Assembly: GCA_025738555.1 (NCBI GenBank)
Contig: JAOVFP010000019.1
Location: forward strand, 124,001 to 188,000
Direction: 5' to 3'
Length of the DNA stretch: 64,000 nucleotides
DNA from: Cyathus striatus
Taxonomy: Eukaryota > Basidiomycota > Agaricomycetes > Agaricales > Nidulariaceae
The notes under the pieces are model-generated. The model saw only the letters and a list, made by a program, of their open reading frames with translations, made no database searches and had not been told where the DNA came from. The stretch's first letter is position 1. Every line of letters begins with the position of its first letter. The position numbers and the translations under genes were made by a program. Positions 13,055 through 55,855 of this stretch are shown here, in pieces.

Positions 13055-13069
13055 ATGATGTACAACTAC

Positions 13070-15530: not shown

Positions 15531-15534
15531 GCCA

Positions 15535-18010: not shown

Positions 18011-18060
18011 CTTACTTTTTTAATAAAAGTAAGTAAGTACCGTTACATGTACTAGTACTA

Positions 18061-33675: not shown

Positions 33676-35192
33676 GAGCTCTTTACACTTAGCCATGTGT
33701 TCTGTACGGATCTGTGCGGAATCCGTACGGAATTTTCGGAGTCTGTGTGGAATCTGCACAAATTTTTTTCATTTTGGCAGAGGTTTTTTTGGGTCTGTAC
33801 AGATTCCGCACAGATTCCGAAAATTCCATAGGGATTACGCAGAATTCCTCGGAATTCCGCATTACAGACCTGAAAATTCTGTACAGATTCTGTACAGAAT
33901 CAGTACAGAATTTTATTATACTTATTTCCTTGCATGTGACACTCTGCATTAAGCATGACACTAGGTGTTGAGTGTGATACTAGGTGTTGAGTGTGACACT
34001 ATACATTAAATGTGACATGATAAACGTGACACTAGGTGTTGAGTGTGATACTATACATTAAATGTGACACTATAAGTGTGACACTAGGTGTTGAGTGTGA
34101 TACTATACATTAAATGTGACACTATAAGCGTGACACTAGGTGTTGAGTGTGACACTATACATTAAACATGACACTATGCATTAAGTGTGACACTAGGTGT
34201 TGAGTGTGACACTATACATTAAACATGACACTATGCATTAAGTGTGACACTAGGTGTTGAGTGTGACTAAGCGTGACACTAAGCGTTGAGTGTGACACTA
34301 AGCATTGAGTGTGACACTAAGCATTGAGTGTGACACTAAGCGTTGAGTGTGACACTAAGCGTTGAGTGTGACACTATGCATTAAGTGTGACACTAGGTGT
34401 TGAGTGTGACTAAGCGTGACACTAAGCATTGAGTGTGACACTAAGCATTGAGTGTGACACTAAGCATTGAGTGTGACACTAAACATTGAGTGTGACTAAG
34501 CGTGACACTAAGCGTTGAGTGTGACACTATGCATTAAGTGTGACTAAGCGTGACACTAAGTGTTGAGTGTGACACTAAGCGTTGAGTGTGACACTAAGCG
34601 TTGAGTGTGACACTAAACATTGAGTGTGACACTAAGTGTTGAGTGTGACACTAAGCATTGAGTGTGACACTAAGCGTTGAGTGTGACTAAGCGTGACACT
34701 AAGTGTTGAGTGTGACACTATACATTAAACATGACACTATGCATTAAGTGTGACACTATACATTAAACATAACACTATACATTAAGCATGACACTAAGTA
34801 TTGAGTGTGACACTATGCATTAAGCATAACACTAAGTGATGAGTGTGACACTCTGCATTAAGTGTGACACTAAGTGTTGAGTGTGACACTATACATTAAG
34901 CATAACACTATGCATTAAGTGTGATACTATGCATTGAGAATGATACTATATATTGAGTGTATCATGGATTTTGTATAGTGTGACACTTTTCACCTAGAGT
35001 TACACTTGACATGTGTGACAAGGCAGCAATGCATAAATCCACACAGAATCCATGCAGAATATGTATGGAATCCATATAGAATAATCACCTCTAATAATAA
35101 TAGCTACTATATAAATTCTGTATGGTATCTATACAGGTCTGTACGGGTCTGTACGGATCCGTACAGACCTCTTGGGGGAGTGTAAATTACTG
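33676..35192. mobile_element. Non-autonomous TIR element, copy 4 (reverse orientation)
   Basis: Starts GAGCTCTTTACACTTAGCC and ends GGGGGAGTGTAAATTACTG. Its outer 250 bases match copies 1 and 2 closely, and the interior array of GTGTGACACTAAGCATTGA-type units is about 1 kb. The sequences AACAATTATG before and AACAATATAT after the element share AACAAT, but a clean 8-bp duplication is not seen. Confidence 0.82.
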
Positions 35193-35322
35193 AACAATAT
35201 ATTCTTTGAAACAAATAAGACCTAAACCACTACCCAATACCTATTGTACCTGGGCAAGAAAGGTGTGAATCTGCTTACCTTTCTACCTTCTAGAGTATCT
35301 ATTTAAATACAGTATATTGCAC

Positions 35323-36165
35323 TCCTCCACGAGATCAGGTGGACTTCAGGTAGACTTCTGGACTCTAGGTGGACTCTACTGGACTCTACTGGACTACAGG
35401 TGAACTCTAGTAAACTTCAGGTGGACTTCAGTTAGAACCAACTACCTGGACTCTACCTGAACTTTATACTTGCAAGGCACCTGTCTCTTACATGGACTCT
35501 ACCTGGACTCTACCTGAACTCTACCTGGGCTCCACCTGGACTCTACCTGGACTCCACCTGGACTCTACCTGAACTCCACATGAACTCTACCTGGACTTTA
35601 CACATACCAGGTACCTGTCTCTTACCTGGACTCTACCTGAACTTTACACATACCAGGTACCTGTCTCTTACATGGACTCTACCTGAACTCCACCTGGACT
35701 CCACCTGGACTCTACCTGAACTTTACACTTACCAGGTACCTGCCTCTTACATGGACTCTACCTGGACTCCACCTGGACTCTATTTGGACTTTACACTTGC
35801 CAGATACCTTTCTCTTACATGGACTCTACCTGGACTCCACCTAGACTCTACCTGAACTTTACACTTACCAGGTACCTGTCTCTTACATGGACTCTACCTG
35901 GACTCTACCTGGACTCTACCTGAACTTTACACTTACCAGATACCTGTCTCTTACATGAACTCTACTTGGACTCTACCTGGACTCTACCTGGACTCTACCT
36001 GGATTTTACACTTACCAGGTACTTGTCTCTTACATGTACTCTACCTAGACTCCACCTGGACTCTACCTGAACTTTACACTTACCAGGTACTTGTCTCTTA
36101 CATGGATTGTACTTGGACTGTACCTGGACTTTATTCCCACTACCTTTTAAGGTAGTTGGGTTATA
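35323..36165. repeat. CCTGGACT tandem repeat element
   Basis: Begins TTGCACTCCTCCACGAGATC and continues as an array of CTGGACTCTACCTGGACTC-like 11-12-base units, with a higher-order unit containing TTTACACTTACCAGGTACCT about seven times. It ends near the palindrome CCCACTACCTT/AAGGTAGTTGGG (36140-36165). Related short stretches lie at 38605-38715 and, inverted with the GGAGGAGTGCAA end, at 54578-54815. Probably a non-autonomous element family. Confidence 0.65.
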
Positions 36166-36579
36166 GGGATGTCTGATTTCCCTATAATGCGATTTACAGG
36201 TTCGTGAACAGGATCCCAACCTGATTGGCTGGAGCCCTGTGACAATCCTGTGACCACTGACGAAATTCACTCGTCTCAGATCCTTTTGCCCCCCTATCAT
36301 CATCCCTCTTGTTTTTGTCATGCTTCTCTGAGAAAGTATGTCTGTTAGTGAATCCATGTATGCTAATTACTCACAATTTGTCTACCAGCTTTCTTTTGTT
36401 CGTTTGTTTCATGGATTTCTAGATCATGTTGCATGCTCTTTTGGTTGTTTGACATTGCTACAGTGCTAACTGTATACATGTCTGTTTTTGCTTGTCTGCA
36501 ACTACACTTCGTTCAATAACTACATAAAGAATGGTAATTAGGCCATTTATTGATGGATCTCTTTCTTGGTGCTTCATAC

Positions 36580-37030
36580 ACTGTCTGTTGTTTTGGCCTT
36601 ACTCAATAATTTTTCTTTGAGCTCACTGGGAATGACTGCTGCAGTGTACAGTCTGTCTCTGTTTGTCAATTGTTTCCCATTGCACTTTGGTCTTGGTGTC
36701 CAGCCTTTCCAGATGGTCTTCCTCAATCAATTCATGGTCATGTGCCTGGAGGAAGATTTTGTCATTGAACTCTCAAAGGATTCGAATTGTTTCTTGCACT
36801 GCGCTTCTTGATAATGCCATGTAAAGGTGAAACAAGCTTAGTTTTCCGCATGCCAGGGTTGCAATGTCTACTAATATGCTGGAAATGGTTTGACCTTGTG
36901 ATTGATAATCAGTGAATGTATATGCCGGTGTGATAAGATATTGCTGTCTTTTGACTGTTCGTTTCAGTACTTTTCCATTCATTCTCTCATGTGTTATAAA
37001 CAATATACCAACTCCCCTTAAATGTCAGTG
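36580..37030 (-). pseudogene. Helitron-type Pif1-like helicase, C-terminal fragment
   Basis: The minus-strand frame encodes LITPAYTFTDYQSQGQTI and, further on, SLFHLYMALSRSAVQETIRIL. These match the last helicase motifs (SQGQT; VALSRS) of Pif1-family helicases found at the end of fungal Helitron proteins. Upstream is GILFITHERMNGKV; downstream the frame continues into a Glu/Arg-rich tail with a TGA at 36623-36625. The ATPase motifs I-IV are absent. It is a decayed 3' remnant. Confidence 0.75.
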
Positions 37031-38600
37031 AAGTATTGATACGCCGGCTTTTAATATACACTCCTTTTTCAATTATTATTTCATTTTATGCAACTTCTAT
37101 ATTTAAATCTGTACAAGGAACCACCCCATGAGTGCAAGAGTTGGAACGAGTCCCGAGTTGCCAACTATAGTATTTTCTACAAAATACACTACTAAGGGAC
37201 GAGTACAAGGGCTGGGGTTGAGGCCCGTGCCGCCAGCCAAAGTATCTCAGCAATACGAACCAAGGGTATTGGAAGTATATCATATGGGTTGTCAGTTCTT
37301 TGTACTCATTTAATACACTACTTTGGTTTATTAGTAGCCATTGCGCTATCTCTTTTACAATTATTATTATTTTACAATGAAGCTACTGTACCGCTCTCGT
37401 GCATCTCAAATGATTCCCTGCACCAAGTCCAATAGACCACGTGCTGTTGTATAGAACCCTCCGGAAAATCTCTAAATCAGAACATACGGACCGCTGTTGC
37501 TCAGCCAGTAGCTTTCAGAAATATGCCCCATGTCTATGATATCCGGGTCTGAATAATAGAATAACTTACATGTGTAAAACCACATGGACGATGGCACGTG
37601 AAACAGCCAAGCACAGTACCAATGCCATCACACACTATTGATGCGCATCGCAGAAAGAGCCGTTAACTCTGAAATTCCTTGTAACCACGCGTTTTAGCAC
37701 ATGTACTGGGCTTGTACCAACGCCGCAGCGTTTGAGGCCCTTCTGGAATAAGGTGTAATCATATGGATTGCCATATGGGGGGGGTTCTCCACACCTTAGG
37801 GAACATATGAACAGCCTTAGAAATAGCATACACAATCTATTTGCATCCACTATACACTATTTACCAGTACAAATAACGTAGGTAGGATTTTTAGTATATA
37901 ATTTAGGGATGGTAGAATAAGTAAAGTAAGTACTGCATGAGCTGTCTTCCGTTCTCAGAGTAGAGTAACATTCTGGAATTAGTATTCGAAGTTTTTGACT
38001 AGTATCTGAAGTACCGAGTATTAGTTTGTTGAATTGAATATTAGAACTTCGAGTTTTTAACTGAAACTGCTCTTGAAGTCTCCGAAACCAAGCTTTAGAA
38101 ATAACCCAGGATCATTATCTTGTTCTATTTCATATTGGAAATCCATACACCCTTCGTACTAAATATAACTAACTTAGAGAATATATTTCTCGTTAGTGGT
38201 GCTACTGCTAATAATATAACGTAAACCCAAGTTAGTCATATCAGTATACTACACTTACACAATGTAATGGCAAGATAGTTTAAGCTAGTGCTTGTTCAAC
38301 TAATCAGTTGAGTATTAAAAGATGTTTGAATTCAATGCACAACAGGAATTAAATTTTGAAATGGGTTTTTTCCAGTAAATGCGGCAATTACAACTTGAAT
38401 TGCCTCAAAGCTATTTGGGGTAGTTCCATAGTGTCAGCTACAAAATTTTCATTCCCCTTCTCCCTGCTCCCCTTCTCATTCTCGAGCAATATGAAACATA
38501 TGGTTCCTTTAATTCAATATCTCTTACTAGTCAAACTGCTGAGGTAGTGGGCTGTGCCACTTGCTGGCCTTATTTCTTTATACTTACTAGCTATCTGTCT
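37031..38600. other. Non-repetitive AT-rich stretch, no gene supported
   Basis: No ORF here has protein character, and I see no repeat structure apart from the short GC-rich patch at 37130-37270. A Helitron 3' end might be expected next to the Pif1 fragment, but I could not identify a CTRR-type terminus. Confidence 0.4.
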
Positions 38601-38604
38601 GTTA

Positions 38605-38715
38605 CATGAACTATACCTGGACTCTACACTCACCAACTACCTGTGATTTACATGTGCTTAACCTGGACTCTACCTGAACACTCTGCATGTACTATACACT
38701 GACTGACCTGGCTTT
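38605..38715. repeat. Short CCTGGACT repeat fragment
   Basis: Contains CCTGGACTCTACACTCACCA and CCTGGACTCTACCTGAACAC, the unit of the array at 35323-36165. It lies just 3' of CxC module C. Confidence 0.5.
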
Positions 38716-38854
38716 TTAGAGTGCAAGGCATAAGCAATAAAAGCTGGTAGGTGTTGCTGAGACTAGGTGGTGAGAGTATAAGTAAAGCAGTTTAAAACAG
38801 TTAAATTTATCCCATACAAATATGTACACTAAATTCTATAAATATATATACAAC

Positions 38855-41171
38855 CTAGTCAACTCTATCAATTTCAACTCCATTGGCTTCAACTTCCTCT
38901 TCATTTATCTGTTGTCCTGGCAGTTGTGTTTTCATGTTCTGGATTTGTCTTTTATTTTGCTTTTGAATAACTCTTTGTGTATGAATAAAAAGCAATGCAT
39001 GTAATGTCCAATTAAAGTTATCCACTGTCATTCTGTTAAGAATACTCTGAAAGCCTCCTAACGAAGCATTCAGCTGTTCACATGCCTGTATAACAAATAT
39101 TGGCAAAGTGTAAATAAGAGTATATTTAACTTACCTGAGTATTAAAAGCTCTTTTATAATGTTGATTTCCATGTACATCTCTTTCTACAACCACTAGATT
39201 TGGAGCTGATCCATTTAAAGGACTGGGGTTGCAATAGATGCAACATAGATAGTCTGTCACTCTGTGATTAATATAGTGATAAGAGTCCACAACAAATCTT
39301 GTAGAAGTTTTCCAAATATTCCAATTATGTGAGCTGATCAAATATTTCAGAACAACACAAGCTTTATCAATGCATACATAGCTTGGCCTAGATTCTTGTG
39401 TTGGATATACATCTTCCAAGAAATTCATTATTTGAGCTGCACTTTGAGCTGCACCTTCAGATTTTACAAATTTTGTCCATGCAATAACAACTCCACATGG
39501 TGCACAAATTGTTTCAACACAGTAGAATCAAGGAGCAGTAAAGTAATTATCAGGCTCCTGAGTTTCATTATTTGGCTGATCATGTGGTGGATTATTTCTT
39601 CTTCTCAATCGGTGAAGCCAAGCTAGTCCACCTTCTTCTTCAGTTCTTCTTATAATTCTTCTAACTCCAAGTACAGATTGTCTCCCAAATCTAATAACAT
39701 GATCATACCACCTTTGTCTGTGGTTTACACATGCTTGAGAATTTGGCTCTTTAGCATTATAACAATTTTTAATTTGGCATCTTCCCTCATATTGACTTTC
39801 ATGCATTAGACAAAATACTCCTGTGTGTGCATTTGCCAATTTTTCAGAACAATTTTGATAGGCACAATGAGTTGGCCCCATAACAATTCCATCAATAACT
39901 ACCATTTTAACCTTTGATTCAAGAGAATAGTCAATTTCCATTTCATTGCCAATAATGTTTTCTAACTCTGTATTGTCAGCATCTTGTTGTAGTGAAGATA
40001 CAGTCCGATTTTCATCAATGCCTGCTACTGCAGCATTGTCATCAGCAGTTATGTAGTCTGCTGTTGCCTTATAATTATGAGTGCATTCATTACAAGAATG
40101 ATGTAGTGCATTTCCAATAATTCCATTTTGTCCCAACACCTTATATGCCTCTGTAGTAATTTGCTGTATAGATAATCCATCAGGCATTATTAAAGTTTTA
40201 TTCATTGAAACAGATATTTGTCTAGTGGTTTCATGAATAAAGGCTTTCCATACTTGAAGTCTTGAAATAGGTGGATGGTCATTTTTATCACCATTTGAAA
40301 ATGTATAATTCCAGAACTCTGTATATGCAGCAGTAGATGCATGAAAATGATATACTGAATTAACAACCATATTGGTAAACAATCTATCAGCCCAAATATT
40401 TTGTCCAATTTTCAAATATTTTGCTTTATTAAGAATCAATCTGTCTTTAGAGCTAACATTTGGATTGCATTGAGAATCTTCTGATTCAGAAGCAAAGTTA
40501 AGACTTTTATGGTCTGCATAATATATAGCTTTACATTTTGTACAATACCCAGAAACAATTTGAGCATTTTCATATGATTTAATTCCTTTTATTAGAGTGA
40601 CTTGTGTTCTGTTGCATTCATGAGTATTTATATGCAATGCTCTTCCAGTACATTCTTTCTTTAAAGTAGAACAAGTAATACAACCAGGACAAATAAACAG
40701 AACAGGTTCAATTTCATTCATAGATATAGGTTTCAGAGGTTCCAAAATTTTTGTATTTCTGGTATAGGGATCCAATTCCAATAGAGATGTTATTCTATCT
40801 AGCTTTTTAGAGATTACAGATATTTTTGTTGAACCTAAAATGCTTGGGTTTTCAGAGGAGTTAAACAGCTGTGTATCTTCCAAGTCAGAATTTATTTTTG
40901 CATTCAAATGAGTTTGTATTGCAGCAGCAAGAGCTTTAATCCATCCATTAGTAGATGCAGAATATTCATCATCAAGTCCAGGGTTTTTTGCTCTTGCATG
41001 CAAGTTAAGAATGTCAGTGTTATTCATTAAAGAAAATAGAACAGTTAATACTGTTGCCAAAGTGATATTTGAGCTGAAATTTAAATTGATAAATTCAGAA
41101 AACAATTTGAATGAAATATTTGGAAATGGATCTTCAGATGATGCTGCCTTGACCTGAGGTATAAAAGACAA
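38855..41171 (-). pseudogene. CxC5-CxC6 (KDZ-associated) protein, copy C
   Basis: Two exons (41171-39135; 39085-38855), about 755 codons. The start is not fixed: the frame is open further upstream with a hydrophobic stretch (WILCILLSFIP), and 41171 is not an ATG. Domains in order: CxC5 cysteines (CPGCITC, GYCTKCKAIYYADH, CNECTH), CxC6 cysteines (CAYQNCSEK, GVFCLMHE, CQIKNC, SQACVNH), then CGVVIAW, YVCIDKACVVLKYL, VDSYHYINHRV and EQLNASLGGFQSIL across the intron. A single TGA at 39528-39530 precedes FYCVET; otherwise it is intact. This is the best preserved of the four apart from that codon. Its partner gene upstream is split by the 8.6-kb element. Confidence 0.82.
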
Positions 41172-41690
41172 AAGAATGCATAGTATCCATAACTAAAGAC
41201 TAAATTGATAACTTGAACTATAGAAAGAACAAACAATTTTATTAGCCAATAGTTCTTTCAAGAAACAAAAACATAAAACATGCTAATAGTACAACAAATT
41301 ACATATTGAAAAGGAAAGAAATATTTTGCTGTTGAAAGCAAATAACTGTACATAAGGCTGAATATACTGTTGAAGTACTCCAACTCTACAGCATAAAGAA
41401 CCAAGATATGAAAATGAAATGAATATTTTGCTGTTGAAAGCAAATAACTATATATAAGGCTGAAAATACTGTTGAAGTATTCCAACTCTACAGAAGAAAG
41501 AACCAAGATATGAAGCCAATTGTTGAAATTGGAGATAAGAAAGATATCCATTTGTTGAAAATGAAAATATTAAAAGATAGAACATTAAAAAGCTAACAAC
41601 CACTTGTTGAAAGTGGAAATGCAGGAACTAACAAATACTGTTGAGAGTATTTGAAGTACTATAGCAAAATGAAACTAATCTTACTGAGAG
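41172..41690. repeat. Spacer of module C with a two-copy direct repeat
   Basis: About 95 bases containing TTTTGCTGTTGAAAGCAAAT and ACTCTACAG...AAAGAACCAAGAT occur twice (about 41325-41415 and 41425-41515), with further TGTTGAAA motifs to 41640. It separates the CxC gene from its accessory gene. If the accessory stop is really a splice donor, this would be intron. Confidence 0.55.
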
Positions 41691-41696
41691 AAAATC

Positions 41697-42840
41697 TTAC
41701 AATTTCTTAGATTTTCCCTTGTCCTTTCTGTGAGACTTCTTAGACTTTTCCTTAGCCCCCTTCCCTCCCCTTTCCTCTCTCTCTTCTCTCTCCTCACTCT
41801 CCACTCTCTCCTCTCTTTCCTCATGTTCCTCACTCTCTTCTCTTTCTTTACCCTTACCCTTACTCTTTCTTTTCTTCTCCTCCTCAGCTGCAGCCTACTT
41901 TCCAAGTAAAATTTGATTCAAATTCTGAAAGTTTGGTTTTGCAGATCCCCAAACACTTTTTTTATCAACCCCTCCTTGTTTTTTCATCCAAGAAGTCATT
42001 TGTGGGTGATAGTCCAGTAGTGGAAAGATCTTATATGCATATGTGTAATATGTGGATGGAGATATGAAAACACTAATAAGTACTTTCTTATCAATATTAG
42101 TTTTTGCTGATGTCATAATAGTACTCAGAGATGGCTTTTTATTGTTCCATATATCTTCAATCATCTCATACTTCTCATATGTAATATAAATGTCCTGATC
42201 TTTGCTATTATTCTTAATGAGATGATCAGGAATGTTGAAGTGTGAGATTATAAGATTTTTCACAACTTCCTCCTTATTGGTGGAAGGTCCAGCAGCTCCA
42301 GAAGCAATAGACTCAGTTCTTTGTTCAGTATCAGCACCCTCCTGATAAAAATGAGCTTTAAGATAAATTGATAACCAAAGTATAACTTACAGCTAAAATT
42401 TCCAGAACATATTTATTATTATCATTTATTTGCCAAGTAACAGTGCTTGTCTTCTTTTCCTGAATACTTAAGTAGCGACCTTTCAAACTCCAATTATCAT
42501 TTTCATGCAAGGGAATTCTGGCATTCTTCTCTATTAACATTGTTAGAAAATATTTCAAACAGTATAAAATATAATAATACATACTTGCAATAGGTGAGTA
42601 ACAATCACCTACATGTTCAAGTAGAGCCTTAAGATCACACAATGGCTCCTGATTACTGATAACAAAATTGGCCTTTGGAGCATCTGACTTAAAAAATAAA
42701 TGGATTTCACCATTATTATTTTCTGGAGGCATAATAAATGGATCTACACAAATAAAGGTTAGATAGTTCAATCTCATAAAATAGCCACTATCTTACCCTC
42801 TTCATCATCTCCATAATTATATGTGTTTCCTACTGCATGT
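41697..42840 (-). pseudogene. Accessory protein of the CxC module, copy C, 3' half (split gene)
   Basis: Exon blocks on the minus strand: 42840-42595 (VGNTYNYGDDEE-type start, then an intron and VISNQEPLCDLKALLEHVGD), about 42545-42390 (NARIPLHENDNWSLKGRYLS, EILA), and 42345-41697 (YYTYAYKIFPLLDYHPQMTSWM followed by a Glu/Arg/Lys-rich tail). The order and residues follow copies B and D. A TAG at about 41905 interrupts before the charged tail, as if from CAG. The 5' half lies at 51448-52357; joining 42840 to 51448 restores one frame, with the 8.6-kb element and one copy of CTGCATGT removed. Confidence 0.75.
42833..42840. repeat. 8-bp target site duplication, left copy
   Basis: CTGCATGT immediately before the element start CAGTAATTTACACT. 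The identical octamer is at 51440-51447, immediately after the other end. Confidence 0.92.
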
Positions 42841-43020
42841 CAGTAATTTACACTCCCCCAAGAGGTCTGTACGGATCCGTACGGATTCCATGTGGATCTG
42901 TACAGACCCGTACAGACCTGTATAGATACCATACAGAATTTATATAGTGGCTATTTTTATTATTATAGGTGATAATTCTGTGCACATTCCATACATATTC
43001 TGCATGGATTCTGTGTGGAT
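42841..43020. repeat. Left terminal region with GTAC palindromes
   Basis: The first 180 bases carry the terminus and repeated GTACGGATCC, CTGTACAGAC and ATACAGA motifs. The same 180 bases end elements at 6146, 24126, 27318, 28490 and 35192. Probably transposase-binding subterminal repeats (inference). Confidence 0.75.
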
Positions 43021-43155
43021 TTATGCAGAATCTGTAAGATCTGTTTAATACCTTAATTTTCCTGTTTAAAATCTCAATGAACACTACAAAAACTGTTAAT
43101 TCATAATCATTTCTACCTATAGTTGTCTAAAATGTAAAACTATGTATGTATTTTT

Positions 43156-45562
43156 TTAAAGAACAATATCATCAGCTGGAAAACTATCATCATCATCATC
43201 ATCTACTACATCACCTTGCACTTCAATATCAGTAGCTTCCTGTCTCTTTCTTTTTCCTGCCTTTGTATAACATGTTTGCTATGATAAAATAACATGGCAT
43301 GCAGAAACCAATCAAAGTTATGTGGTGCCATTTTTTTAAAATGGATTCAAAGCCACCAAGCCAAGCATTGAGCTGTTCACATGCCTATTATTAAGAAGTA
43401 GTTATTAAAACATTTTATATCATTATTATATATGCTCTTACCTGTGTATTAAAAGCTCTTTTCAAATATGGATGTCCATTCTTATCAAAGTCAGTAATCA
43501 CAAGATTTGGAGCTGATCCATCTAATGGTGCAGGATTACAAAATATTCTGCAGAGATAATCTGAAACTCTGTGTCCTGTGTAATGATAGCTGTCCACACT
43601 AAACCTTGTAGTTTTTTTCCATGTATTCCACTGCTCTCTTCGATCTTCATGAAGAAGATATCTTAGAACCAAGCATGCCTTATCAATACATACATAATCT
43701 GGTCTAGATTCTTCAGTAGGGAATACCTCCTCAAGGAACTTCATGATATTGTATGGTGATTCAGCATCCTCAAATTTTGTCCAGGCAATAACCACTCCAC
43801 AAGGTGCACATATTGTCTCAACACAGTAGTATTTGCCTGGAGTAAAGTAGTTTTTTATTTTTCTATTTGCTGATTGTTGTGGTTCATCATGTGGCTGAGA
43901 ATTTCTTGGTCTAACTGTACTCCATTCATTCTGTTCTCCTGGGCAGTGAAGCATTCTCCTTACACCAGCTTGATAAGAAGAATGACGAGTTGATTGAAAT
44001 CTTGTCCACTCAGCTTGGTGATCATTACAAGCCTGTGTACCTTGCTTTTTCATATTAGTGCAACCTTGAATATGACAGCATGCACCATAAAAGGCTTCAT
44101 GTACTTCACAAAAAACACCTCCACGTGCATTATGCAACTCACTTGTACACCCTTCAAATGCACAGTGTGTTGGGCCCATTATAATACCATCCAGTACCAC
44201 CATTTTTACAGGTGCATACTCATTCTCATTTATTGTAGAATCATTATTTTCCATATCTGCTACTGCTGCTTGTACATTTACAGAATTCATATCTTCCTGG
44301 GTACTTTCTGATTGTACAAGATCAGGAACTGATCTGTTTTCATCAATTCCTACCACACCAGCAGAGTCAACTTCTGATGTCACATTAGATCTGTCTTGGT
44401 AGACATGTGTACACTCAGCACAAGTGTGCTTATCAGCAGATCAAATGATTCCATTATCACCAAGTAAAGAATAAGCTTCACATGTAAGATTATCAATTGA
44501 AAGACCATCTTCAACTTCTAAATTTATGCCTTGTGCAGCAGCTAAGGCTCTAACAGTTTCTTGAATGAATGCCTGCCAAATATGTCTGCGGGTGATGCTT
44601 TGTTCATCAGAAAAGCTATTATTCCAAAATTGAGTGTAAGCAGCAGCTGATGCATGAAAGCTATAGATTGCATTGACAGCTGCATTTGAAAATATTCTGT
44701 CCACCCACAGTGACTGTCCCACTTTAACATACTTTGCAGAATTGAGGTAAACTCGAGTACTTTTTTTATTAGAAATTGAAACTTTCTCTCTATCAGCTGA
44801 GTATTGTGTTTTACATTTATTGCAGATTCCTGTAAGTACTTGAACATTTTTTATTGTTTCAGTACCCTGAATTAAAGTAACTCGAGGAATATCTCTTATA
44901 CTTGTTGATAAGTGCAATGCTAATGGGGGGCATGTATTTGTTTGACATACAGCAGTTACAGGACAAATAACAAATGATGGTGAAATCTCTTTATGAAATA
45001 CTAACTTTAAGTTTCCTTTAAATTTGCCAGATGATTCACATGGATTAAGCTTTAGAGTCTTCATTAATTTATCCAAGCTCAGTGCCAAAGTAGTATCTGC
45101 TTGGTCACCAGGTTCACCTTTAAACAATTTGTTACATCTCTCTCCAAGTTGTTCTTGTAAAGCTCGAGATAAGGTAAGCATCCAAGCAGTCATTTGTACA
45201 TTATTCTCCTGAGGATATCTAGGATTGTGCTGCCGTGCATGAAGACTTAATAAGTCACAGTTGTGTGTAACTGTAAATAGTATTACTAAGGCTGTTGATA
45301 AGGAGATTTCTGAACTATAATTATTACTGATAAATTTGCTAAAAGTTTTAAATGATATATCAGGAAAGGGCTGCATGTTTGCTGATACTCCTGGCAACAT
45401 TATTAAAATAATCCATATGTGCAAATTTATAGTTGTATTCTTAAAATTTATCCAATCTTTAAATCTCCAAAGTGTTGTAAAAATAAGAACAAATTCCATT
45501 AGAATGGAACATCCAGTTACAAAACTATACAAGACACTTTTTTTTTGAAGGAACACATGCAT
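43156..45562 (-). CDS. CxC5-CxC6 (KDZ-associated) protein, copy D, cargo of the 8.6-kb element
   Basis: Two exons (45562-43442; 43384-43156). In order: a hydrophobic N-terminus with IWIILIMLPGVSA; a region with SLSTALVILF and LHARQ; CxC5 cysteines (CPVTAVCQTNTC, GICNKCKTQYSADRE, CAECTH); CxC6 cysteines (CAFEGC, GGVFCEVHE, CHIQGC, GTQACNDHQ); and the C-terminal block ETICAPCGVVIAW, YVCIDKACLVLRYL, VDSYHYTGHRV and, across the intron, EQLNAWLGGFESIL. I suggest the C-terminal block is a derived RNase H-fold transposase core, with Asp in CIDKAC and Glu in CEQLN as acidic candidates and no obvious first Asp. One in-frame TGA at 44441-44443, and a 7-A run at 43331 that is one base short (8 in the copy at 6603), damage this copy. 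Confidence 0.82.
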
Positions 45563-45654
45563 AAGAATTTGGCATATGAAATAGAATACAAAGATCTCAA
45601 ATTTTATACTACATTTTAAAAATGAAAAAAAGATTCATTCAAGATAAAATAAGC

Positions 45655-48519
45655 TTACTCTTTAGCTTTCTTCTTAGAAGCCTTCTTAACTTCCTTATCC
45701 TTTCCTTTACCTTTACCCTTCCCTTTATCCTTTCCTTTCTCCATTTGCTTGTTCTTTCCCTTATTATTCTTATTCTTATTCTTCTCCATTTCCTCCTCCT
45801 CCTCTCATCATCCTCATCCTCATCCTCATCCTCATCATTCTCATTCTCATCCTCATCTCTCATCATCATCATCCTCATCCTCATCTCATCCTCATCTCAT
45901 CCTCATCCTCATCCTCATCCTCATCTCATCCTCATCCTCATCCTCATCCTCATCCTCATCCTCATCCTCATCTCATCCTCATCCTCATCCTCATCTCATC
46001 TCATCTCATATCTCTTCATCCTCATCTCATCCTCATCTCATCTCATCTCATCTCATCCTCATCCTCATCTTTATCCTCATCTCTTTATCTCTCATCTTTA
46101 TCTCATCTCTCATCCTTATTCTTTATCTTATCTCATCTCATCCTCATCCTCATCTCTTTATCTTTATCTCATCTCTCATCTCTTATCTCTTCATCTCTCA
46201 TCCTCATCTCATCTCATCTCATCTCATCTCATCCTCATCCTCATCCTCATCCTATCATCTTTATCTCTTTATCTCTTATCCTTATCTCTCATCTCTTTAT
46301 CTCCTCATCCTCATTCCTCATCTCATCCTCTCATCATCTCATCTCATCCTTTATCCTCATCCTCATCCTCATCCTCATCCTCATCCTCATCCTCATCCTC
46401 ATCCTCATCCTCATCCTCATCCTCATCCTCATCCTCATCCTCATTATCATCATCATCATCATCATCCTCATCATCTGACTCCTCCTGTTTACTTTTAACT
46501 TTTCCCTTTCCCTTTCCCTTTCCCTTTACTTTCTTTCTTACTGCTCTGTCAGGATCAAGTGTCCCTCCATTCTCATAAAATGTCTTAAGGTCCTCAAATG
46601 TATATTTTTGGGTCTTTTCATATCCCCATGCTTCCATATCAGATGGAGCATCATCTTTTCCCTCCATCCATTTCATTAAATGAGGATAATTTGATAGCTT
46701 TGTAAAAAGCTTTGAGTGGTTGGACTGAAAGTATGAATAGGACAGGAAAATATCAACAATTTCCTTCTTTCTTAGTGCTTTTCCTTGCCATTGGTTGTTC
46801 CTTGCCATTGAGTTATATATATCAAGATACTTAAGAGCCAGCAAGTACTTCTTATATTGGCCTCTAATTCCATCCTCAAAAGTGCAGCTAAGTTCATCTG
46901 CACTGACACCAAGATGAGCAGCAATTACTTGAGGCTCAGCAGCAGCTTCTGTTACAGCAGATGGAGCCATTGATACAGATCGATTGCGAGTAGAAAGAGA
47001 CGCAGAGTGAGACTGAACTGCAATTAGTGTTAACTCTTCTTGACCTGAAGGATGAAAAGAAGACTATTTGTATAGTTGAGTTTGGAGCTGTAAAGATACA
47101 TAAAAATAACACTTACACATAATACATGTATAACATAATTTCCTTGCTGAATCCATGTAAATTCCTCATTTTCCTCAATGGCACATTCAAAGTTACCCAA
47201 AAGACGCCAATGTGGGCTGTCATTATCAACAATATAAAACCACTGATTAGAATCAGCAATAGGATTATATTTCTTTGCTAGTCCTTTCATAACAGGTTCC
47301 ATTGAGTTTACTGAAATAGGGATCTTAATAAAAGTCATTGAGTTCATGTTTATAACTTTCAAATCTGTTGGATCTAGCTTTGAAATGTAAAGGTATATAA
47401 TTCCTTTGACATGTTCTAGATATGTTGACTGCTTCTCAATTTCAAGAAAGTCAGCACTGTTATAGACATTACCCTGTGCATGATGGCGCATAAATCCACC
47501 TAAATAGCTTGTTATTTTTTATTATATGTTAGAGAAATAAGATACTTACCAGTTACACGAGAGGATCCTTGTAGATTGTAAGTCTCTTTCTTTGGTGGAG
47601 ATGCCATGTGAACATCACTTATATAGTTATCTGTATTTTCATGCTCACTTAGACTTTCAATATTGGGCACATCCTTCTGAGTATCCTTACTGGTCTGATT
47701 ACCAGTATTCTCACTGCTCTTGTTGTGAGCATTCTTGCTGGTCTGGTCACCAGTATCCTCATTGCTCTTGTTGTGAGTATCTTTGCTGGTCTGATTACCA
47801 GTATCCTCATTGCTCTTGTTGCGAGTATCTTTGCTAGTCTGATTACCAGTATCCTCACTGTCTTTGTTGTGAGTGTCCTTACTGGTCTGATTACCAGTAT
47901 CCTCATTGCTCTTGTTGTGCTTAGAGCTAACTTCTTCAATTTCACTGCCACTATCATCAGAGGGATTATTACTGGCATTTTCACCAGCACTAGTATCTTC
48001 ATTTGCATTCTCACTTTCTGTACTTTCATTATCAAGTACCTCAGAGTGACGGACATGACCACTAGTAGCAACTGGAGCCTGGCTAGCAGGAAGCAAACTC
48101 ACAACTGCATTGCAAATTCGCTTAGGAGGGGCAACAGAGGTGCCATCATCAACAATATTTTGTTCAGCCCTTGTCAACTTAACTGGTGAGCTGGCACTAG
48201 CATCTTCAGCAATACGCTGTGTTGCAGATTTACTGAAAAGAAAATTTAAAATGATTAAAATGCGATTTTATAAATGAATTATTACATACCGTCCTCTTCC
48301 CTTCTTTCCTTTCCTCTTCTTAGCACTGTTTCCCTCAGATTCTTCTTCTACAGTACTCTCCTTTTTGCCCTTCTTTTTAGCAGGTTGAGTAGTACCTTCA
48401 GTGGAAGAGACAGTGCACTTGCGAGTATTTGAAGGTTCTGGTGGATTGTCAGTATTGCCACTGGTTGTAGTGGCATTAATGTTGGTGGATTTGTTCCTAG
48501 TAGATCTGCGAGGAGGCAT
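45655..48519 (-). pseudogene. Accessory protein of the CxC module, copy D, with repeat-expanded tail
   Basis: Four exons with good splice sites: 48519-48290 (MPPRRSTRNKS, basic Lys-rich), 48232-47550 (Ser/Asn/Asp-rich with about six 13-residue repeats of the type SNEDTGNQTSKDT), about 47501-47117 (GNVYNSADFLEIE, HWRLLGNFECAIEENEEFTW), and from about 47046 (GVSADELS, RKKEIVDIFLSYSYFQ, LFTKLSNYPHL). The final exon runs into a (CTCATC)n microsatellite of about 650 bp that codes an Asp-Glu run and then loses the frame before the conserved basic tail near 45700. It occupies the same place as the A, B and C homologues, upstream of the CxC gene. Function unknown; predicted nuclear from charge (inference). 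Confidence 0.7.
45790..46475. repeat. Hexanucleotide (CTCATC)n microsatellite inside the accessory gene
   Basis: A run of CTCATC, with CTCATCT and CTTTATC variants, covers nearly 700 bases. The corresponding acidic tract in copy A (9605-9720) is only about 115 bases. On the coding strand it reads Asp-Glu repeats, and irregular unit lengths break the frame. Confidence 0.9.
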
Positions 48520-48724
48520 GGTATGTTGTAGTGAGTTGTGATAAGCTCTGATCTGAGTGGATGTGGGTGGATGAGTGGTGATGATAGTGGTAAGAGAGAG
48601 AAAGAGGAATGAGGCATGTGGAGATTTAAAGGCAATAGAATGTTCACACCATTTATTTTTATTCCTGAGTATGTGACATCATGATTTCACAGCTAATCTA
48701 TAAATAGTATAAGGGAAAGTTTAC

Positions 48725-48830
48725 TGTGTGTGATCGCGAAATACATTTGAATGTGAGATCTGATCTCAAAATACATTTGAATGCAAGATCTGATCTCAAA
48801 ATACATTTCAATGTGAGATCGCCTTCTGGC
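48725..48830. repeat. Three tandem copies of a 32-bp unit upstream of accessory gene D
   Basis: Units of the form ATCTGATCTCAAAATACATT followed by TGAATG-type sequence occur three times about 210-310 bases upstream of the start codon at 48519. TGAGATC and GATCTCA are complementary, so each unit boundary is palindromic. It is a candidate upstream control repeat; the role is not shown. Confidence 0.5.
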
Positions 48831-49039
48831 AATCTATTCATACATGACAGCATATGCGATAACAAACATGCAGTAATGTACTATAAGCAATTACAAGGTT
48901 GAGCATGAGATCAATTTATTTAAGTAGTTTCTGTCATTCTCACTGTAGCACACACATCTCACTGATTATTATAAATTTATGTACTGTTCTAGTATTTACA
49001 GTACATGATTTCTACTCTAATTAGTAATGTAGTCTACTG

Positions 49040-51230
49040 TATAATAATTACAGGTAACAATAGGTAAAGGGAGCACTGAAGGGGGGCAACAATGTGTGTA
49101 TGCGGGCGGCAGCACACAATAAGGGGAGAGGGCGTCGAAGAGGGGGGGCGACGATGGGGTACACGGATGGCGGTGAGATCGCGATGCAGTGTGAAATAGC
49201 GACACCGTCGCCGCCCCCTCCGCTCGTTATCCCTTCCCCTCCCCTTGCTGTCATCTCCCCTCGCTATCATCTCTCCTCACTGTCCTCTCCCCTCACTGTC
49301 CTCTCCCTGCTCTCTCTTCCTCTCCTGTCCTCTCCCGTTGCTCTCCCCTCCCCTCGCTGTCCCCTCCCCACGCTATCCCCTCCTCATGCTATCCCCTCCC
49401 CTTGCTATCCCCTCCTCTCCACTTGCTATCCCCTTCCCTTCCTTCGCTCTCCCCTCTCCTCCCCGAGGAGGCGGAGGAGGGGGGGATGATACTCTTCCTC
49501 GTCACTTGCGAGACGAGGAGGCAGGGGAAGAGGGGGAGGAGGGGGAATGGCACCTCATCATTTGTGAGACGAGGTGCAGTGGGGAGGGGAGAGGGAAGGC
49601 ACCTCGCCACTTGCGAGACGAGGTGCAGGGCAGAGGAGAGGGACGCACCTCGTCACTTGTGGGACGAGGTGCGGGTGGAGGAGAGAAGACGCACCTCGTC
49701 AGTTGTGAGACGAGGTGTGGGGCGGAGGTGAAGAGATGCACCTCGTCAGTTGCGAGACGAGGTGCAGGGGAGGGGGGGAGGAATGGTACCTCGTCGTTTG
49801 CGAGACGAGGTGCAGGGCAGAGGTGGAGAGACGCACCTCATCACTTGCCAGACGAGGTGGAGAGGGAAGGCAGAACGGCACCTCGTCGTTTGCCTGACGA
49901 GGTGCAGGGGGGAGGATAAACGGCACCTCATCACTTGCGGGACGAGGTGCGGGTGGAGGAGAGAAGACGCACCTCGTCAGTTGTGAGACGAGGTGTGGGG
50001 CAGAGGTGAAGAGATGCACCTCGTCAGTTGCGAGACGAGGTGCAGGGGAGGGGGGGAGGAACGGTACCTCGTCGTTTGCGAGACGAGGTGCAGGGCGGAG
50101 GTGGAGAGATGCACCTCGTCACTTGCCAGACGAGGTGGAGGGGGAAGGCAGAATAGCACCTCGTCGTTTGCCTGACGAGGTGCAGGGGGGAGGATAAACG
50201 GCACCTCGTCACTTGCGGGACGAGGTGCGGGTGGAGGAGAGAAGATGCACCTCGTCACTTGCGAGACAAGGTGTGGGGCAGAGGAGAGGGATGCACCTCG
50301 TCACTTGCGAGACAAGGTGTGGGGAAGAGGTGAAGAGATGCACCTTGTCAGTTGCGAGACGAGGTGCAGGGGAGAGGGGGAGGAACGGCACCTCGTCGTT
50401 TGCGAGACGAGGTGCAGGGCAGAGGTGGAGAGACGCACCTCGTCACTTGCCAGACGAGGTGGAGGGGGAAGGCAGAATGGCACCTCGTCGCTTGCCAGAT
50501 GAGGTGGAGGGGGAAGGCAGAACGGCACCTCGTCGTTTGCAAGACGAGGTGCGGGGGTGGGGAGGAGACATAACACCTCGTCACTTGTGAGACGAGGTGG
50601 AGGGGCAAGGCGCAGAACAGCACCTCGGTCGCTTGCCAGATGAGGTGCGAGAGTGGGGAGGAGACGTAACACCTCGTCACTTGTGAGATGAGGTGGAGGG
50701 GGAAGGCGTGGGGGACGGTAGACATAGAAAAATAATGAATATAGAACGTACCCATTATAACTAACCCCAGCCAGATCCGATGTGGCAGTACCCCAAGACC
50801 CAGCAAGCGAGACGACGGCAAATGTTGATGAGCAGCTGCATTGATGGCAGCGTTGATTGAAGCGAAGAGTGTGAGGCATGTTGATGAAAGAGGGGACCTG
50901 TGCATGATCGAAGCGATGAGCGAGGGTGAAGAGCGGAAGAGGGGGCCCGAGTAGTGGGAATGGAGGGCGACAACGGTGAGGGTGGAGAGTGACGACAGTG
51001 AGAAAGGCTGTATTGACAGTGGGAAGCACAGTGGTGACGCGTCACCGGCACCAGTTACCAGTCACCGACGGCCGGTGACAGCGATGACATGTGACATAGC
51101 CAGTGGTTATGTCTAAAGGCTGTGTTGGCTCAGCTGGTTTAGCATGCCATATGCTTGCTGACAAAGCAATGGGAAGCTAAGGGTTCAATTCACGCTATGG
51201 TATGTTATTTTACTAAGTACATATTATAAT
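49040..51230. repeat. GC-rich, CpG-rich block 2 with palindromic minisatellite
   Basis: 49080-49480 has CCCCTCGCTATCCCCTC-like pyrimidine units. 49530-50720 has about twenty units of about 50-70 bp, each containing the near-perfect palindrome CACCTCGTC...GACGAGGTG with an ACTTGCGA or GTTTGCGA loop. 50720-51110 is unique GC-rich sequence. 51117-51205 is tRNA-like. Long Ser/Pro/Arg ORFs on both strands come from the minisatellite and are not supported as genes. The block sits inside the 8.6-kb element and probably inserted into it. Confidence 0.75.
51117..51205 (+). other. tRNA-like (SINE-like) sequence at the end of GC-rich block 2
   Basis: A polymerase III box A-like TGGCTCAGCTGG and a box B-like GGTTCAATTCA lie about 50 bases apart. 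The acceptor and T stems do not pair properly, so this is not a working tRNA gene but resembles a tRNA-derived SINE head. A comparable sequence ends block 3. Confidence 0.4.
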
Positions 51231-51439
51231 TACAGATTACATAAGAGGTCCGTACGGATTCCGTGTAAGTCTTTGTTATGGAGTTCTGCGTATTCCATAC
51301 AGAATTTACCAGTCCGTACAGATTCCGTAAGGAATCTGTGCGGAATAATTACTAATTTAAAGTGAAGTCCCAGCTAATTTACAAATTACAGAATTTGCAC
51401 GGATTCTGTACGGAACACATGGCTCAGTGTAAAGAGCTC

Positions 51440-51447
51440 CTGCATGT
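51440..51447. repeat. 8-bp target site duplication, right copy
   Basis: CTGCATGT directly after the right end of the 8.6-kb element; identical to 42833-42840. Confidence 0.92.
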
Positions 51448-52357
51448 CCACATGAGAACCCTCCCATTGTATGTGATGCCCCTTGAAGTTCATTCTTGCT
51501 CAAACCAGATATTGCTGAACTATGTAACTCAGAGCGACGTGAGACTTTACTTATAGAGTGGCAGTTATCAGTAGGACTAGATGGTGCACATCCATGCTTA
51601 AGAACTGGCAGAGATTTCTTTGGAGTGATATCTATATCAACATCCATAAGTTCACTTTCTTCCTTCTCTGCATTCTCAATTCTAGCATTGGTACTTATTT
51701 CCTCCATTTGATTATCAATTAAATTTTCATCTGAATTCTTAGAATCATCCTCAGAACCATCCTCAGAACCATCCTCAGATTTGGATGTGTTATCAATTTC
51801 AATCTCAGTATTAGAACTTTCAGGTAAGTTCCCAGATGCCTTATCAGCAAGCAAAGAATTCAAAGTCATAGTTTCCAATCTAGCCAAAGGCATTAAAATC
51901 TCATCTTCATTGAGAGAGTCACTTATATCAGCCACAGGAGTTTGAGTTGACTGAATTGATGCAGAGCTTGCAGAACTTGCAGAGATGTGAGGAGGAGGAG
52001 CAATAGAAATGCCCTCCTCTGCTAATACCTGCTCCACTCTTTAACAATATCAGAAAATATAACAAGTAGTTAGAGAATAATAAATATGGAGTAAGCTTCT
52101 CAGGAGTCTCAGCATTTTCATCATCTTGAAGTCTCTGAACTGAGGTCTTTCTATGTTTCATAAATTTTAACAAGTAGATAAAGCAAGAATTAATATAAAA
52201 CATACTTTGTTTTCTTTGTCTTGTTCACTTTAGCTGCCTTTCCACCCTTATTAGTGCTTTTCTGTGCATTTTCTGAGTTTTTTGGACCAGATCTAAGAGA
52301 TCTCTGGTTGTTTTCTGTGTTTTCTGTAATGTTTGAAGATTTTCTGGTGCCAACCAT
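51448..52357 (-). pseudogene. Accessory protein of the CxC module, copy C, 5' half (split gene)
   Basis: It starts at MVGTRKSSN (52357), a basic Lys/Asn-rich exon that parallels MPPRRSTRN in copy D. It continues through a short exon near 52170-52090 (SVQRLQDDENAETPEK) and an Asp/Glu/Ser-rich exon (52037-51448) ending TMGGFSCGHA. The frame runs into the element end at 51439 and resumes at 42840 with VGNTYN, which corresponds to YGNTLN in copy B and QGNVYN in copy D. So this is the missing front of the gene at 41697-42840, and it was intact at this site before insertion. Confidence 0.78.
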
Positions 52358-52599
52358 AATGAAATGTATGAGAATAGTAGTAGGAACAAGTAGAAAGCAG
52401 TTGAGTGTGTATCTGGAGTGTGGGTGGAAGGGAAGAAAGAAGTTCTCAGGCCACCATGTCATATATATGAAGATCAAGTAATGACTATTAATATCTATCA
52501 AGCCTTACTCAATCTGCACTTCCTTCACATGTCCATTTTCGGATTCACTCACACAAATTCAAGCCTCACGCTGTCAATACTATTTAAAGAATGCAATAT

Positions 52600-52800
52600 A
52601 ATTAGAAGAATCAATCCATAATGGATCAATTCTTCATTGTATACTATGCTGTCGATAACATAAATATAATATATAATTAGAAGAATCAATCCAATAATGG
52701 ATTGATTCTTCATTGTATAGTACATTGTCGATAATGTAAATATAATAAATGATATGGGAAAATTGATCTGATAAGAATCAATTTTCTCTTGTACATAGTG
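52600..52800. repeat. Short tandem palindromic repeat (ATTGATTCTTCATTGTATA)
   Basis: AGAATCAATCC...GGATTGATTCT inverted motifs and TTCATTGTATAxTA recur two to three times, each unit about 65 bases. It immediately precedes GC-rich block 3. Confidence 0.55.
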
Positions 52801-52804
52801 AAGG

Positions 52805-54540
52805 TGGGGTGAATGGGCATGTGCATGTGCATGGGTGTGGGAGTGGGCAAAGGCGAGGGTGAGGGCGAGAGCAAGAGGGGAAGAGGGCGAAGGAGAGGTT
52901 GAGGAAGAAGGGAGGAGACATATGCCCTCATCTCACAAGTGACAAGGGCATAGTGATGCAGAGAGGGGAGGAAATATATGCCTTCGTCACTTGCAAGACA
53001 AAGGCAGAGAGGGGGCAGGGTGGTGGGCAAGGGGAGAAGACACCCGCCCTCATCTGCAAGTGACCAGGGCAAGGGGAGTGGGAGAGGGGAGAAGATGCTT
53101 GCCCTCGTCACTTGCAGACGAGGTGAGGGAGAGGAAGAGAGGGGGGGAGGCCATATACACCTCGTCACTTGTGAGACGAGGGCAGAGGGGGTGTGGGGCC
53201 ATGAGCAAGAGAAGACGCTCACCCTTGTCACTTGCAGACGAGGCGAGGGAGAGGGAGAGGGAGAGGGGGGGAGGCTATATATGCTTCATCACTTGCAAGA
53301 CAAGGGTAGACAGGGCGTGGGGCCGTGGGCAAGGAGAGAGGACACGCGCCCTTGTCACTTGCAGATGAGGCGAGGGAGAGGGAGAGGGGGGGAGGCCATA
53401 TACACCTCATCACTTGCAAGATGAGGGCAGAGAGGGCATGGTGCCATGAGCAAGGAGAGAAGATGCTTCCCCTTGTCACTTGCAGATGAAGGCAAGGGAG
53501 AGGGAAAGTGGGGGGGGGAAACCATATACGCCTTGTCACTTGTGAGACGAGGGCATAGAGGAGGCACATGGCCGTGGGTGAGACAGGACACTTGCCCTCA
53601 TTGCTTGCAGATGAGAGCGAGGGAGACAGCGAGGAAGAGGGGAGAAAATAAGCACCCTCATCACTTGCAAGATGAGGGCCAAGAAGAGGCACGGGGCCAT
53701 GGGTGAGGAGAGAGGATACTCGCCCTCATCACTTGCAGACAAGGGCGGGGGAGACAGTGAGGGAGGGGAGGAAATATGTGCCCTTGTCACTTGCAAGACA
53801 AGGGCGAGGGAAACAGTGTGGGAGGGGAGGAAACAAGTGCCCTCATCACTTGCAAGACGAGGGAGAGGGAAACAGTGAGGGAGGGAATGAAACAATCACC
53901 CTCATCACTTGTGAGATGAGGGCAGAGAGGGGGTGTAAGGCCATGGGCGAGGGAGATGGTGAAGGAGGAGGAGGCTGGCGCATGGAGAAGCCAGTGGCCA
54001 GCAAAGACGCTTGCCCCCATCACTTGCAGACAAGGGTGGGGGAGAGCAAGAGGGGGTTAGTTGCTTGTACTTGTCACTTGCGAGACGAGCAAAGGCATGT
54101 GGCAGTTCTTGATGTGGTTACACATGGTGTTACACATGAGAGAGGGAGGAGGGGGATGAGAAGATGTTGGCTGCTTGATGCCACGCTCATCAATTGCTAG
54201 ACAAGAGGATGAGATGGGGGAGGGGATGAGACGATGAATGAGGGGAGAGGAGGGGAGGAAGAAGGAGGAGCAGAGAATGAAGGAAGGAAGAGGGAGGAGC
54301 CATTATTGTTTGCGACAATAATGAAATGTGCAGCACTGGCAGTTTGTGGCAGTGTGTGCAGCATGTGACGTTTCACCCTGAGGTTGGCTATAGGGAGTCA
54401 CATGTCAGTACTAACAATGACCAAATGGCCTAGTGGTTAGTGATGCATCAGTTAGCGCTTGTTAAGCACCAGCTATTCTTGGCATTGATGGTTCAATTCT
54501 CTGTGGTAACATTTATTAAATTAATTTTTTTCCTATATTA
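52805..54540. repeat. GC-rich palindromic minisatellite block 3
   Basis: From 52920 to 54110 about seventeen units carry GCCCTCGTCACTTGCAAGAC and GAGGGC palindromes in a GGGAGAGG-rich spacer. It is analogous in plan to block 2 but has a different core (GCCCTCGTC rather than CACCTCGTC). Block 3 ends in a tRNA-like sequence (54424-54515). ORFs on both strands are repeat translations. Confidence 0.7.
54424..54515 (+). other. tRNA-like (SINE-like) sequence at the end of GC-rich block 3
   Basis: Box A-like TGGCCTAGTGGTTAG and box B-like GGTTCAATTCT in the order and spacing of a tRNA, but the stems do not pair. It is followed by an AT-rich tail. Confidence 0.4.
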
Positions 54541-54577
54541 TAAGTAAGAAACCTTGTTATAATTGTCTAGTACAAAG

Positions 54578-54815
54578 TACAGCAAAAATCAGGTGAACTA
54601 CAGGTAAAGTCCAGTATTCTACCTGAAGTCCAGTGGCTGAAATCAGTGATTTCCAGGTGATTTCCAGTAGTCCACCTGAAGTCCAGGACTGTACCTGGAC
54701 TGTACCTGGACTGCACCTGGACTGCACCTGAACTCGACCTGAACTGCACATAGGATGGCAGCATTCTCATAGTTCAGGTGGACTCCACCTAATTTCATGG
54801 AGGAGTGCAATGAAC
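54578..54815. repeat. CCTGGACT repeat fragment, inverted relative to 35323
   Basis: Contains GTACCTGGACTGTACCTGGA and ends GGAGGAGTGCAATGAACTC, the reverse complement of the start of the 35323 array including the TATTTAAA-like flank. Confidence 0.6.
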
Positions 54816-55855
54816 TCTTTAAATACATAAAACACAGCACTATTACGAAGAGTTTCTCAGACATTGTATACTACATATATCTACCTGAAACACTTCCCCT
54901 GTCCTTATTTGTGTCTTTATTTAGCTATCATTTGACCATGAGTCACTCACTCTGAGGCATTAGAATCCTCTAGAATGTTCAATTCCCATGGTTTCCAGAT
55001 GCTACAGTGTCTCATCTTTGATCTAATGTTTTGTTCTTATCCAGGCCTGTGCTTCAGTGAGACCATTCCCTATCATACTAGAATATAATGTACTAAATTC
55101 TAGCTCCAGATCAAGACCAAAATCATCCTGATTGATGAAGAATTGACCATTCTACATCACTTTGAAATATTCATTAATTCATATTTATGTTATTGACTAT
55201 TTGTTAGACTTCAATCCTGATGCCAAACAAACTTAGCGGTATCAAGTGAAATTAAAACATATAAAAGTCATGTGACTGGCAGAAAAGCGGTACCTTCAAT
55301 ATTTAATATCTTTTCCTACACACCAGGCTAATGGTAAGTTGGACATAGAAGCACTTGTACTATATTTTGTGATATGAACAGATGAATATTAACCCAATTA
55401 AAGGCCAATAAGTACAAGGCTTGCTATTTTGTAGCAGTCCATAGATCTTTATTTATTATCTGGGGTTCATAATGTGTACAGATTTAAGACTGTAAATGGT
55501 AGAAATGTGCAATTTTATACCTAAATGCACAAGTGGTGTCACAATGTTGGTAATGGCATAAGCACCTTCACATAAACTACAATGCTACTGAACATGATAA
55601 GCACATTAAGTAAAACTATCAAATACATACCAGACACATGAAAGACCCCACCAACACAAACAGAAATCCAACAGGCACCAGTGTGAGACCAGCCATACAA
55701 TGTGTAGACACCCAGCCCTAGAGGTTTGCACAATGGAGCAGAAATGGAGTGGAGGTGCACAAGGAAAATGAGTCAGAACACCTGTAGTAGAAAGCTGAGG
55801 GATGGTATGGGAACAGAAGGAAAGAAAGGAGATGCAGAATGGGTTCAATATGTTA
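54816..55855. other. Spacer, no feature seen
   Basis: AT-rich unique sequence, apart from short ORFs without protein character. It is the left flank of the DUF6589 element. Confidence 0.4.

Follow-up and report, generated by a model that had tools for sequence, protein, structure and literature searches.

The DNA analysed here (the window) comprises 64,000 nucleotides of Cyathus striatus, positions 124001-188000 of contig C19 in a genome of 107.45 Mb and 24 contigs. It contains a transposon of 8,599 bp at 42841-51439, delimited by its ends, its target site duplication (TSD), an empty site and a strict scan for TSDs and terminal inverted repeats (TIRs), and carrying on its minus strand an accessory gene and a gene encoding a protein with the cysteine clusters CxC5 and CxC6. 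The TSD, CTGCATGT, occupies 42833-42840 on the left and 51440-51447 on the right, and is single in the empty site. The outermost bases of the element are CAGTAATTTACACT (42841-42854) and AGTGTAAAGAGCTC (51426-51439), and its 19-bp ends, CAGTAATTTACACTCCCCC at 42841-42859 on the plus strand and GAGCTCTTTACACTGAGCC, read inward, at 51421-51439 on the minus strand, begin with CAG and GAG respectively and form an imperfect inverted repeat with 12 of 19 positions matching. The first 14 and the last 14 bases are identical in 12 whole copies of the element. The ends, the flanking octamers and the two minus-strand genes are all as given in a preliminary description of this DNA.

Structure of the 8.6-kb element and its insertion site

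The CxC5-CxC6 gene, which would encode a DDE transposase, extends on the minus strand over 43200-45562 (outer limits approximate), with a main exon down to 43442, an intron at 43385-43441 whose limits were placed by eye, and a last exon from 43384 down. The codons of the three proposed catalytic residues lie at 44189-44191 (first Asp, LDG motif), 43682-43684 (second Asp, CIDKAC motif) and, within the last exon, 43376-43378 (Glu, ACEQLNAW motif). An in-frame TGA is found at 44438-44440 and the last exon is split across two frames; to judge from its sequence, the window copy is dead, and an intact transposase cannot be made from it. The element had been called a complete transposon, which holds for its ends and fails for this broken gene.

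The accessory gene (46347-48519, minus strand) was assigned four exons, 48519-48290, 48232-47550, 47499-47119 and 47044 to about 46347, with splice sites chosen by eye. Its product has a basic N-terminus and an acidic, repetitive C-terminus, and its open reading frames (ORFs) had no match in Pfam. The central part of the protein matched three proteins among 2128 candidates, 57-86% identical over 51-61% of the query part; since all three are from Cyathus striatus, the gene would appear to be either fast-evolving or narrow in range.

From left to right, the element is laid out as inverted repeat, subterminal repeats, CxC5-CxC6 gene, accessory gene, hairpin tandem array and right end. The subterminal short repeats, of the TCCGTA/TACGGA type, lie at 42855-43030 on the left (three exact in the first 350 bp) and at 51240-51425 on the right (five exact in the last 350 bp), with none in the middle of the element, and are candidate transposase-binding sites. 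C-rich tandem repeats of about 16 bp (49235-49464) precede an array (49497-50707) in which a unit of about 46 bp, able to form the hairpin CCTCGTC-loop-GACGAGG, is repeated about 25 times.

The element lies within a second transposon at 35310-54817, whose ends are CAGTATATTGCACTCCTCC and GAGTTCATTGCACTCCTCC, whose TSD TTTAAATA is found at 35302-35309 and 54818-54825, and which carries its own CxC5-CxC6 gene (main open frame 39528-41171, minus strand). The interrupted gene, described earlier as a host gene, is in fact the accessory gene of this outer transposon. It is related to the accessory gene of the inner element (22% identical over 192 columns when the two sequences were compared with each other, E 1e-6). 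The empty site was found at L064 (C6:305600-306900), where the same gene is uninterrupted and CTGCATGT is present once, with 6 differences from the window in the 280 flank columns compared. The closure of the reading frame upon removal of the element (CGHA followed by VGNTYN), previously deduced on paper, is therefore observed in a natural copy. The outer-family copy on C6, which does not contain the 8.6-kb element, has the same TSD as the outer copy of the window and is thus probably a duplicate of the window locus; the simplest course of events would then be duplication of the locus followed by insertion of the 8.6-kb element. These results demonstrate that the 8.6-kb stretch is a real transposon inserted into another transposon of the same kind.

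Copies and families in the genome

The genome was searched with the first 300 bases of the element (the best 40 of 534 candidates scored) and with its last 290 bases (the best 40 of 185); copy numbers are lower bounds since only part of the candidates were scored. Pairing of the ends by hand yielded at least 15 further copies of this first family, 6.5-12.2 kb long, of which 12 were examined whole with their flanks and 3 as pieces. An exact 8-bp TSD flanks 9 of 16 copies, namely the window copy, 7 of the 12 whole copies and 1 of the 3 partial ones (C10, counted as TSD-bearing provided that its final base is T rather than C); L026, for which one end only was found, was excluded from this count. 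No TSD was seen around the remaining 7 of 16 (L010, L017, L018, L020, L021, C4 and C18 long), among which L020 and C18 long lie face-to-face with one flank in common. The proposed comparison of the ends with the genome thus returned further same-ended copies with 8-bp TSDs, together with the empty site.

The preliminary description had named, as findings that would speak against its proposal, a separation of the gene pair from these ends in other copies or a different transposase consistently present in copies with these ends. Instead, every one of the 14 same-ended copies tested contains the CxC5-CxC6 gene, complete or partial (L010 has no more than 472 of 729 residues), and the first exon of the accessory gene with its upstream DNA was matched in all 15 paired copies outside the window, the places being compared by hand. 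The presence of the gene in 14/14 copies therefore leads us to reject its earlier label of cargo; it likely encodes the enzyme.

Ten copies of the outer family outside the window, chosen by pairing matches to the left and right ends, were checked at both ends, and all ten (8 long, 2 short) have an exact 8-bp TSD. A CxC5-CxC6 gene is present in all 8 long copies, in two of them partially (positions compared by hand). Two more families were recovered, the third element of the window at 10153-18336, with TSD CAAGTCTG and its own CxC5-CxC6 gene at about 11786-13717 on the minus strand, and an element in L065, with TSD GACTCTCG, a CxC5-CxC6 gene and a peptide matching the accessory protein. These two add nothing to the TSD counts, as a TSD was required to find them. 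The TIRs of the three other families match at 16, 13 and 11 of 19 positions. Four families in one genome therefore have in common the type of ends, the 8-bp TSD and the CxC5-CxC6 gene, with subterminal repeats whose period is near 11 bp and whose sequence is family-specific.

The strict scan (CAGTA...CTC, exact 8-bp TSD, TIR of at least 9 of 19, 1.5-25 kb) gave 3 places in the window, whereas 200 dinucleotide shuffles together gave 14, or 0.07 per shuffle; this comparison is not a blind test because the criterion was fixed after all three places had been seen. L065, obtained afterwards for its CxC5 gene, contained exactly one place with a TIR cut-off of 8, which is closer to a blind test. Three truncated stretches, L022, L024 and L026, contained no place under the strict scan. 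The strict scan had replaced a looser TSD/TIR scan, which gave 6 places in the nested region versus 5.15 per block shuffle.

Matches to PF18718 are numerous in this genome (471 candidates, of which 150 were scored, all above the cut-off), and a search for homologues, with scoring limited to the 7,998 candidates that had the most words in common, returned at least 516 CxC5-CxC6 proteins.

The CxC5-CxC6 protein as a candidate transposase

A structure model predicts an RNase H-like catalytic domain in the C-terminal half of the CxC5-CxC6 protein. With residues numbered as in the Galerina protein P0042, the proposed triad is D405, D574 and E654. D405, G406 and D574 are invariant in 72/72 aligned rows, as is the motif V600-D601-x-x-H604, and E654 is found in 31/72, most of the other rows being gapped or belonging to gene models that end there. 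When proteins were selected by a motif downstream of the Glu, 41 of 120 qualified and the Glu was present in 41/41; its constancy in alignments A2 and A3 proves nothing, because both were chosen by the Glu motif. A Foldseek search with the predicted structure gave weak matches, a second model aimed at including the Glu exon was poorer than the first, and a sequence search of solved structures gave no match at E <= 1. The predicted fold thus lends moderate support to an RNase H-like DDE core.

To address the KDZ transposases, with which the CxC5 and CxC6 clusters are associated by their Pfam names, 60 tblastn queries were compared with 17 elements (14 of the first family, the outer element with the 8.6-kb copy nested in it, the third and that of L065). 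None of the 17 was matched, whereas three KDZ control loci were all matched, by 60, 60 and 12 queries. The KDZ domain PF18758 had no match in the CxC5-CxC6 proteins or in the L012 ORFs scanned, in keeping with the earlier statement that the protein is not a classical KDZ transposase, and the search for a separate KDZ transposase in other copies, also suggested there, found none in these elements. In Pfam, at E <= 1, the 9 long ORFs of L012 likewise matched no other transposase and no reverse transcriptase or integrase.

From these data we infer a transposase activity, and consider it likely that the CxC5-CxC6 protein is a DDE transposase moving these elements; the 8.6-kb element would accordingly be a DDE-type TIR transposon of an abundant Agaricomycete group. 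The suggestion that this protein may be the transposase is supported by the co-occurrence of gene and ends, the lack of KDZ matches and the predicted DDE core. In the mechanism we propose, the subterminal repeats specific to each family would be recognised by the CxC5 part together with the N-terminal helices, and the C-terminal half would provide the RNase H-like DDE core, in which the CxC6 zinc cluster would follow the first strand as an insertion and the DxxH motif would precede the Glu helix. The protein would cut the element ends and join them to the target at positions staggered by 8 bp, a staggered joining deduced from insertion with an 8-bp duplication. The accessory protein may help in DNA binding or regulation, and short same-ended copies would have been moved in trans.

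The alternative that survives best is that the CxC5-CxC6 protein is a divergent KDZ transposase and the element another KDZ subfamily, a reading that overlaps with the one preferred here in that the protein is still the transposase. By eye, both groups have the same motif order, D-x-x-C at the second Asp, V-x-S-aromatic-H and then Glu; in the KDZ proteins PSWH occupies the DxxH place in 74/112 trimmed rows and D-I-x-C the second Asp in 87/112, a likeness unconfirmed by profile comparison. The 8-bp TSDs fit those made by Zisupton and Dileera, KDZ elements whose proteins also have cysteine clusters by Pfam name, while the TSDs of Kyakuja, which is without TIRs, are of 7 bp (PMC12730594). Against this reading, PF18758 was not matched, and the comparison of a profile of the C-terminal domain (26 proteins) with one of 112 KDZ proteins scored 11.8, below the mean of 14.9 for 40 column shuffles, the CxC profile being shallow and the KDZ set lacking the first Asp. 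An untrimmed comparison was discarded, as 2 of 30 shuffled controls exceeded 99 percent probability. No KDZ domain was thus detected in the elements by hidden Markov model, tblastn or profile comparison, and no TET/JBP match in the 9 ORFs of L012. We regard a divergent KDZ origin as possible and rather unlikely.

It is improbable that a KDZ transposase acting in trans moves these elements as non-autonomous units, with the role of the CxC5-CxC6 protein limited to DNA binding. The Pfam names, the same 8-bp TSDs and the abundance of KDZ matches in this genome (169 candidates, 150 scored) are compatible with such a scheme. However, besides the 0/17 elements matched by KDZ queries, the CxC5-CxC6 gene is kept, completely or partially, in the tested copies, which would be unnecessary for a passive passenger, and the protein has a predicted DDE core of its own. 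In addition, PMC7641404 describes the intact Pleurotus KDZ transposons as all preceded by CxC2 and never by CxC5/CxC6. Finally, movement or rearrangement of a CxC5/CxC6 fragment by a Copia-type retrotransposon, suggested for an insert in Pleurotus MSH4 on the grounds that the two are often neighbours there (PMC7641404), is highly improbable here, as ends, TSDs and an empty site all belong to the element itself, and the 9 long L012 ORFs scanned gave no reverse transcriptase or integrase match at E <= 1.

Among known systems, the CxC5-CxC6 elements resemble IS256/MULE in the predicted RNase H core, the 8-bp TSDs and a C/DxxH motif between the second Asp and the Glu, the motif being that described in PMC7780238. 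In ISCth4, the triad is D175, D241 and E348, CxxH lies at 262-265, the ends contain TGTAAA and the TSDs are of 8 bp (PMC7780238). TGTAAA is likewise present in the first-family ends; at the corresponding place on the right end, TGCAAT is found in the outer family and GGTAAA in the third. The CxC5-CxC6 elements differ from IS256/MULE in that no such Pfam family was matched at E <= 1 by the 729-aa frame of L012, in the CxC6 cluster between the first two strands, in the 50 residues from DxxH to Glu, and in a layout of eukaryotic type that includes an accessory gene and a hairpin array. The hAT elements resemble the CxC5-CxC6 elements in a left end of the CAG type and in motif class. The TSDs of hAT are also of 8 bp (PMC12730594); by contrast, no hAT transposase or dimerisation Pfam domain was found in the 9 L012 ORFs. 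Whether the CxC5-CxC6 proteins constitute a eukaryotic DDE superfamily of their own appears to us evenly balanced. Such a superfamily would combine an IS256/MULE-like core having a zinc cluster between its first two strands with a recurring accessory gene, a tandem hairpin array, RNA polymerase III-like boxes and subterminal repeats of about 11 bp, and would be spread in mushroom-forming fungi without a KDZ enzyme.

The Pleurotus ostreatus MSH4 insert (6,792 bp, with a CxC5/CxC6 ORF of 739 aa, 46-bp direct repeats and a microsatellite cluster) is similar in having several copies, interrupting a gene and lacking a KDZ gene within the expected distance; it differs in its link to Copia retrotransposons and in having 3 direct repeats versus about 25 units in the 8.6-kb element (PMC7641404). 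The terms 'target site duplication', 'inverted repeat' and 'transposase' are absent from the main text of that paper. The literature searched, in which PMC7641404 was the one relevant paper on CxC5/CxC6 in transposons, contained no account of these ends or of a transposase role for CxC5-CxC6 proteins; its coverage does not extend to Iyer et al. 2014, the source to which PMC7641404 refers for a link of CxC5/CxC6 to KDZ. If CxC5-CxC6 proteins are transposases, many fungal repeats would gain a name, searchable ends and a testable enzyme, and the spore-less commercial oyster mushroom could be explained, since the MSH4 insert, whose anatomy is similar (PMC7641404), may simply be an element of this kind that inserted in the usual way. 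Four families in one genome and a nested element with its empty site make the chemistry directly testable.

Repeats, box-like sequences and decay

Hairpins number 20 in the window copy, 27 in L012 versus 0.65 in L012 shuffles, and 5 in the third element. Tandem arrays of hairpin units with similar stems and loops occur across divergent families, at 49497-50707 and 53101-53932 and at 1222-1777 of L065.

An A-box-like TGGCTCAGCTGG and a B-box-like GGTTCAATTC lie at 51126-51191 on the plus strand, their starts being 314 and 258 bp from the right end. A pattern search found both boxes in 12 of the 14 first-family copies; in the outer element, at about 54425-54502, it found the B box, the A box being recognised by eye, and at the L065 right end both were found by eye. 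A tRNA reading of these pairs was rejected, as ARAGORN found no tRNA in the window and Rfam gave no tRNA match, nor any other match at 51126-51191. These pairs near the right end are possibly an RNA polymerase III or TFIIIC site.

The window also contains short same-ended copies at 24126-25772, 26343-27318, 28490-29691 and 33676-35192, of which only 26343-27318 has a near TSD (7/8). The flanks of the first and the last, which are oppositely oriented, are swapped (CATAATTG/ATATTGTT and ATATTGTT/CATAATTG), as if recombination between them had inverted the 24-35 kb segment. The stretch 6146-10144 appears to be an old first-family copy in whose accessory gene the third element has inserted; no continuation of it was found in 18337-19500. 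In decayed CxC5-CxC6 genes, TGA predominates among the internal stops and may represent CGA codons decayed by C-to-T change; together with the CpG observed/expected ratio, which spans 0.12-0.67 in the 14 first-family copies compared, this bias suggests CpG-directed decay.

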